Shown here one piece after another: positions 28,832-30,955 of a stretch of DNA of 64,000 nucleotides (positions are counted from its first letter, which is position 1; each line of letters opens with the position of its first letter). Made by a program: the position numbers and the translations under genes. This DNA is from Halobaculum rubrum (GTDB lineage: Archaea; Halobacteriota; Halobacteria; Halobacteriales; Haloferacaceae). Under the pieces are notes generated by a model, which had not been told where the DNA came from, did no database searches, and was given only the letters and a program-made list of their open reading frames with translations. The DNA is taken from the NCBI RefSeq assembly GCF_019880225.1, contig NZ_CP082284.1, positions 2,790,001 through 2,854,000 on the forward strand, read 5' to 3'.

Positions 28832-29560
28832 CTACCACGACGCCGCAGTCACGGTCGGCCACAGCGCCCACCCCACAAGCGACGCTGCCAGCGCCAGCGC
28901 CAGGACGTCGTCCCGCCCGAACGTCGCCTCCGGCGGCGTGGGGTCCCACGAGAGGCACCGCGCGCGCAACGCGACGGCCAGCCGGTCCGTGCGGGAGAGC
29001 ACGCGATTCAGTCCCGCGGTCGCGACGAGCCGCACGCGGTCGCGCAGCGGACGCTGGTCGCCGAGTCGTGCCGCCATCGCCTCCCGAGTACGGGCTAGAT
29101 CCGCCTGCAGCACCGGAAGAAACCGGAACACGAGCCCGACGCCGAGGCCGAGGAGTCGGCCGGGCTTGCCGGGGACGAGGCGCGCGACGGCGGCCTCCGA
29201 CTCGCGAACCGGCGTCGTTCGGACGTACGCCGCGACGAGCGCGAGCAGGAGGAGCGTGCGGTACGCCGCCAGCGCCGGATCGACGGCTGCGGCGGGGTCG
29301 ATCCAGGGGGCTCCCAACCGCAGGGATTCGATCGCCGGGGCCGCCGCCAGAAACGGGAGGATCCCGCGGTACTCCGCGAGAACGACTCCCGGCGTCGTCG
29401 ACGCGAGCGCGATCAGGACCGCCGTGACCCCGGTGAGTACGGCTAGACCGATCGGATCGGTGTGTCCGAACGCCGCCGCCGCGAACGCCGCCTGCAACAG
29501 CAGCTTGCTCCGCGCGTCGAGGCGATGTCCCAGGGAGTCTCCCGGCTCGTACGTCAGCAT
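28832..29560 (-). CDS. ecfT: Energy-coupling factor transporter transmembrane subunit
   Basis: 242 residues, hydrophobic, with R-L-D-A-R-S-K-L at the start (family D-x-R-x-K) and two cytoplasmic coupling helices. The latter of these carries V-A-L-R-A-R (about 202), close to the A-R-G motif that transmits ATP-site motion. With EcfA and BioY it forms a biotin importer. Its start overlaps the EcfA stop by 7 nt. Confidence 0.88.
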   Translation of the reverse strand: MLTYEPGDSLGHRLDARSKLLLQAAFAAAAFGHTDPIGLAVLTGVTAVLIALASTTPGVVLAEYRGILPFLAAAPAIESLRLGAPWIDPAAAVDPALAAYRTLLLLALVAAYVRTTPVRESEAAVARLVPGKPGRLLGLGVGLVFRFLPVLQADLARTREAMAARLGDQRPLRDRVRLVATAGLNRVLSRTDRLAVALRARCLSWDPTPPEATFGRDDVLALALAASLVGWALWPTVTAASW

Positions 29561-30324
29561 CGCTCGGGGCGACGAACCGGGAGGTCCTCGAGGGCGTCGA
29601 GTCCGGCGGAGGGGGGCGCGTCGACCGCGACCTCGCCGTCCGCGAGGACGACGAGCCGATCTGCGTGTTCGAGCACGTCCCGCAGGTCGTGCGTCACGAG
29701 CACGATCCCGGTGCCGTCGCGGTTGAGTTCGAGGAGGTGAGCGAGCACCGACTCGCGTGCCGACTCGTCGAGGCCGGTGAACGGCTCGTCGAGGACGAGA
29801 TGCGACGGCTCCATCGCGAGCGCGCCGGCGACGGCGACCCGCTCCTGTTCGCCCCCCGAGAGCCTGTCGATGCGCTCGTCGCCGCGGTCGGTCATGTTCA
29901 CGGCCACGAGCGCGCGGTCGACACGGCGATCGATCTCCTCGCGGGGCAACCCGAGGTTCTCCGGCCCGAACGCCACGTCGCGGGCGACCGTCGCGGCGAC
30001 GAAGCAGTCGCGCGGCTCCTGGAACACCATCCCGACCCGTGTGCGAGCGGCGACGAGGTCGTCGCTCACGGGGGTTCCGTCGACGAGCACCTCGCCCTCG
30101 TCGGGCGTGAGCAGGCCGTTGAACTGTCGAACGAGCGTCGACTTCCCGGAGCCGTTGGCGCCCGCGAGCACGAGGAACTCCCCGTCGGGGATCCGAAGCG
30201 ACACGTCGCGGAGCGCGATCGATCCGCCGGCGTCACCGTCCGAAACGGAGCCGTCGGCGCCGCCGGAGTCGGCTCCGGCCTCCCCGCCGCCGTAGCGGTG
30301 TGTGAGATCGCGAACCTCGATCAC
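29554..30324 (-). CDS. ecfA: Energy-coupling factor transporter ATPase
   Basis: 256 residues. ABC motifs: Walker A G-A-N-G-S-G-K-S-T (about 54-62), Q-loop V-F-Q-E-P, signature L-S-G-G-E-Q (about 156-161), Walker B L-V-L-D-E-P (about 177-182) and H in V-T-H-D. An acidic Gly/Ser/Asp-rich insert (about 13-35) sits after the first strand and is unusual in the family; it may be a haloarchaeal surface loop. It lies 9 nt after bioY and overlaps ecfT. Confidence 0.92.
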   Translation of the reverse strand: MIEVRDLTHRYGGGEAGADSGGADGSVSDGDAGGSIALRDVSLRIPDGEFLVLAGANGSGKSTLVRQFNGLLTPDEGEVLVDGTPVSDDLVAARTRVGMVFQEPRDCFVAATVARDVAFGPENLGLPREEIDRRVDRALVAVNMTDRGDERIDRLSGGEQERVAVAGALAMEPSHLVLDEPFTGLDESARESVLAHLLELNRDGTGIVLVTHDLRDVLEHADRLVVLADGEVAVDAPPSAGLDALEDLPVRRPERC

Positions 30325-30915: not shown

Positions 30916-30921
30916 GTGTCC

Positions 30922-30955
30922 CTCGTAAACCGAGACGGCTGTTAGACTTTACGAG
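30922..30955. promoter_or_regulatory. BirA-like biotin operator upstream of bioY
   Basis: CTCGTAAAC, 16 nt, CTTTACGAG: arms of 9 bp with one mismatch (8 bp perfect, CTCGTAAA/TTTACGAG). The known BirA operator is TTGTAAACC with a 14-16 nt gap, and BirA sites have been described in archaea. Position 7 nt before the bioY start fits repression by biotin-loaded BirA. Confidence 0.7.

Follow-up and report, generated by a model that had tools for sequence, protein, structure and literature searches.

Does the inverted repeat in front of the biotin importer gene bioY in Halobaculum rubrum serve as an operator for the biotin protein ligase BirA? The window, by which we mean the whole stretch of DNA that was analysed, comprises 64,000 nt (NZ_CP082284.1, positions 2,790,001-2,854,000, forward strand). 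Read on the plus strand, positions 30922-30955 contain CTCGTAAAC-N16-CTTTACGAG (full stretch, CTCGTAAACCGAGACGGCTGTTAGACTTTACGAG), exactly the sequence and place of the original prediction; since bioY is encoded on the minus strand, the site lies upstream of it. The distance to the bioY ATG is 6 nt (30916-30921), not the 7 nt that had been given. In the direction of bioY the full site reads CTCGTAAAGTCTAACAGCCGTCTCGGTTTACGAG, and its arms can pair at 8 of 9 positions. Allowing up to three mismatches in the 18 arm bases, the site occurs nowhere else in the 3.06 Mb genome. A second match in the genome, with two mismatches, was found at C1:2516930 (CGTACACC...GGTGTACG); it is GC-rich, lies inside open reading frames and was judged to be due to chance. 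The features of the locus are collected in Table 1.

Table 1. Genes of the bioYMN operon and elements upstream of bioY, in window coordinates.
Feature	Position	Strand	Details
bioN, CbiQ-type transmembrane component	28832..29560	-	PF02361, E=1.1e-11; its start and the bioM end share 7 nt
bioM, importer ABC ATPase	29554..30324	-	PF00005, E=6.3e-31
bioY, substrate-binding component of the ECF biotin importer, 193 aa	30334..30915	-	PF02632, E=4.2e-35
Predicted BirA-type operator	30922..30955	-	Towards bioY, CTCGTAAAG-N16-GTTTACGAG; in the usual register, CGTAAAGT-N14-GGTTTACG
Putative TATA-like hexamer TCTAAC, weak	30941..30946	-	Within the spacer of the operator, at -31 to -26 relative to the bioY ATG

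The gene behind the site heads a single operon, bioY-bioM-bioN, which encodes a BioY protein, an ABC ATPase and a CbiQ-type subunit and hence a complete ECF biotin importer. BioY homologues in named haloarchaea share 59-94% identity with it, and the same three-gene importer has been described in the biotin auxotroph Natrialba magadii (BioYMN, Nmag_0886-0888), in a paper whose passages on BioYMN do not discuss a regulatory site (PMC3403918). A scan of the genome for the site near further biotin genes, which had been proposed along with the original prediction, detected no site with up to three mismatches near birA or near the genes for biotinyl/lipoyl-domain proteins. In relatives the site also precedes bioB. 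No bioB was found above the family cut-off in the H. rubrum genome, which explains why bioYMN alone carries the site here and means that its absence from other biotin genes says little against the prediction. The bioYMN operon is probably the whole BirA regulon of this genome.

A BirA able to read such a site should carry a DNA-binding domain, as the original prediction had assumed, and it does. The genome encodes two proteins of the biotin/lipoate ligase superfamily, one BirA and one lipoate-type ligase. The sole birA (C1:2904808-2905839) specifies an N-terminal HTH_11 domain (E=2.7e-10) followed by the ligase domain (PF03099) and BPL_C (PF02237), that is, the HTH, ligase and C-terminal domains of a Group II biotin protein ligase in one protein. 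It aligns over nearly its full length with E. coli BirA (1bia; residues 28-323 on 10-301), HTH included, and its alignment with S. aureus BirA likewise includes the HTH. The lipoate-type ligase (C1:855898) was considered as the regulator and ruled out, having no HTH match. Across the order, 12 of 195 genomes have no BirA match, and all 12 also lack bioY.

The arms and the gap are those of the bacterial signal. The BirA consensus is TTGTAAACC-[N14/15]-GGTTTACAA (PMC545781). Set in the same register, the window site presents the GTAAACC/GGTTTAC type of arm with a gap in the 14-15 bp range; its left arm reads GTAAAGT where the consensus has GTAAACC, a difference at two positions that is specific to the genus and also seen in Halobaculum gomorrense and H. 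saliterrae. The E. coli operator bioO, which we take to be TTGTAAACC-N16-GGTTTACAA, was found in this form with its flanks in 5360 of 5426 E. coli genomes. The claim of a bacterial operator gap thus stands in one part and not in the other: N14 fits the N14/15 consensus and is two shorter than the N16 of E. coli. Arms of the GTAAACC/GGTTTAC type and the order of the BirA domains are alike in the two species; in contrast, bioO lies between the divergent bioA and bioBFCD, whereas the window site faces an importer operon in one direction. BirA sites also occur before bioY in Gram-positive bacteria, at Lactococcus lactis bioY1 (PMC4861984) and B. subtilis yuiG, where binding requires biotin and ATP, that is, biotinoyl-AMP (PMC4016012). 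Those sites belong to bacterial promoters and bind BirA in gel shifts, whereas the window site is a predicted one at a promoter of the TATA/BRE type.

To what extent is the site conserved? We scored 101 bioY upstream regions, that of the window included, drawn from members of the order and from named records, against the pattern CGTAAACC-N14-GGTTTACG with a threshold of at least 13 of 16 positions. The threshold was reached at exactly N14 by 80 of the 101 regions and by 3 of 5050 shuffled regions. Given the relatedness of the species, a few of which may be represented twice, such counts overstate the number of independent cases. Other gaps were rare among the 101 (five at N13, two at N15, none at most others). 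The window site itself agrees at 14 of 16 positions. In a scan of the whole order allowing up to two mismatches, 159 of 195 genomes matched, against 22 for a reversed-pattern control (counted by hand from the table). The nearest named relatives of the window are H. saliterrae, H. gomorrense and H. litoreum; in the window and the first two of these the site lies 5 bp nearer the start codon than in most relatives, and genera differ by 5 bp in where it lies with respect to the start.

The presence of the site also tends to go with the type of ligase. No HTH match was found in the ligases of three genomes, G002, G016 and G019 (families f3 and f16), and those of G015 and G030 have no HTH_11 match and match PF25213 only below the cut-off. 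Of these five genomes, the two that possess bioY, G019 and G015, have no operator at it; with so few cases, and with the genomes of HTH-less ligases only 59-86% complete, the correlation between site and HTH is supportive and not conclusive. The ligases of G002, G016 and G019 appear to be natural Group I forms that arose within the Group II clade. Two other genomes, G026 and G038, have a bioY without the operator and a bioB with it, and the BirA of G026 has the HTH region.

The second recurrent target is bioB, whose upstream region reached at least 13 of 16 positions in 27 of the 30 relatives examined; the site is found at promoters of biotin genes, bioYMN here and bioB in relatives. In bioB, the GTG start codon and the right arm, GTGGTTTACGA, overlap, and the arm encodes VVYE (for example in L143, L150, L157, L163, L166 and L182-L207), so that the operator dictates how the protein begins. 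Directly upstream of the operator, a TATA-like element adjoins the left arm. At bioY the arrangement is another one: among 60 promoters with the common spacing, A+T content is highest between -29 and -25, counted from the start codon, and thus within the operator spacer. In Haloferax volcanii, 72% of transcripts are leaderless (PMC4983044), and the bioY promoter is probably leaderless as well.

What the original prediction had observed is thus confirmed, and its interpretation as a BirA operator is supported by the comparisons of sequence made here. Very probably, the dyad serves as operator for a BirA of Group II which, as a dimer loaded with biotinoyl-AMP, would repress bioYMN by promoter occlusion. 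From the same comparisons we infer BirA binding, its dependence on biotin, the direction of the control and the occlusion itself, which could operate as follows. Once the biotin acceptor proteins are saturated, BirA would retain biotinoyl-5'-AMP and dimerise, and the two winged HTH domains of the dimer would bind the GTAAACC and GGTTTAC arms. As the 14-bp spacer contains the TATA-like element, the dimer would cover BRE and TATA, exclude TBP and TFB, and turn bioYMN off; at low biotin the corepressor would be lost and import restored. Since B. subtilis BirA needs biotinoyl-AMP, repression at high biotin is the most likely action.

Other readings of the same dyad have to be weighed. BirA might bind without simple TATA occlusion, acting through a short leader, at a later step or on the divergent side. 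The TCTAAC of the window is a weak TATA-like element, and the 5-bp shift between genera would fit such an action; yet the A+T peak of the 60 relatives falls within the spacer, and the bioB operator immediately follows a TATA-like element and extends over the start codon, both of which fit a block of initiation, and we consider this variant unlikely. It is more improbable still that the dyad serves another transcription factor of the biotin genes: BirA binding is itself a prediction, and a few genomes have an HTH-type BirA and no site at bioY, but the arms and gap match both the BirA consensus (PMC545781) and E. coli bioO, and the presence of the site tends to accompany an HTH-bearing BirA.

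Readings that dispense with a repressor fare worse. That the palindrome arose by chance, or is a conserved core promoter and nothing else, is very improbable, given the excess of the fixed-gap dyad over shuffled regions (80/101 against 3/5050). Part of the conservation of the spacer is indeed that of a core promoter; the same dyad, however, sits elsewhere relative to TATA at bioB, and is therefore not the promoter itself. Lying between two genes of the same orientation, the inverted repeat could also be an RNA element of the bioY leader, be it a hairpin, a riboswitch or a terminator. The predicted fold, however, leaves the arms unpaired (z = +0.99 relative to shuffled sequences), the site has no Rfam match, and it probably lies upstream of the transcript start. 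On the fold and the Rfam search a hairpin or riboswitch was rejected, and we give an RNA element hardly any credence.

Returning to the BirA operator, the arms and the recognition helix of the protein show a local correspondence. In family f17 both arms read CGTCAACC in place of CGTAAACC, and the recognition helix of BirA reads SRNAVWK, not SRAAVWK; the variant residue aligns with Ala51 of the H. rubrum protein. Of 23 genomes whose left arm is of the C type, 17 have the asparagine; of 30 whose left arm is of the A type, none has it. A strict covariation across all families was rejected, since six genomes outside f17 combine CGTCAACC with SRAAVWK; these exceptions, lying in other families, reduce the pattern to a single clade-linked association, which is suggestive only. 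We lean slightly towards a broader proposal, in which haloarchaeal BirA would block core promoters in two ways, by straddling BRE/TATA at bioY and by overlapping the GTG/VVYE start at bioB, and in which helix and arm would have changed together in f17. If so, a bacterial-type repressor would control TBP/TFB promoters through one and the same operator.

A BirA regulon with its sites was reportedly predicted for bacteria and archaea by Rodionov, Mironov and Gelfand in 2002, and the present case therefore confirms that prediction with new detail without adding a new kind of control. The haloarchaeal sites resemble the 2002 signal in their arms, their N14 gap, their targets bioY and bioB, and the HTH-bearing BirA that goes with them. 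They differ in the first arm base, which is usually C (CGTAAACC), unlike the TTGTAAACC consensus of the 2002 regulon; and relative to that regulon, it is the present analysis that describes their placement over the BRE/TATA or the start codon of archaeal promoters. A literature search of limited scope turned up no experiments on repression by an archaeal BirA. For a repressor whose DNA signal was predicted to be common to bacteria and archaea, the locus offers a regulon that is firm and open to testing, in a group that includes the genetically tractable Haloferax, and it illustrates how one type of operator can be accommodated at the TATA promoters and start codons of archaea.

Outside the haloarchaea, 8 of the 11 loci of the phylum with an exact GTWAACC-N14-GGTTWAC dyad have it in front of bioY, methanogens included, bioY being identified at these loci by eye from the translation. 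In three methanogens of family f19 (L330, L331 and L332) bioY shares its ATG with the right arm, ATGGTTWAC, an overlap like that at the start of bioB in haloarchaea. In another genome (G221, family f32; L328) an exact GTAAACC-N14-GGTTTAC lies 8 nt before an open reading frame that, judged by its N-terminus, resembles archaeal-type phosphoenolpyruvate carboxylase; this dyad may be due to chance or be an extra target. In genus g17 of family f6 (L020, L027, L031, L059 and L266), the second arm at bioY is GGTAAACC, 22 bp from the first and further upstream of the start (36 nt), making a direct rather than an inverted repeat, a layout that may correspond to a different arrangement of BirA. Finally, the BirA of H. 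rubrum (L002) reads QTASRGRLDREW at the GRGRxGR ligase loop, with Ser in place of the first Gly, and several relatives read GSRGR.
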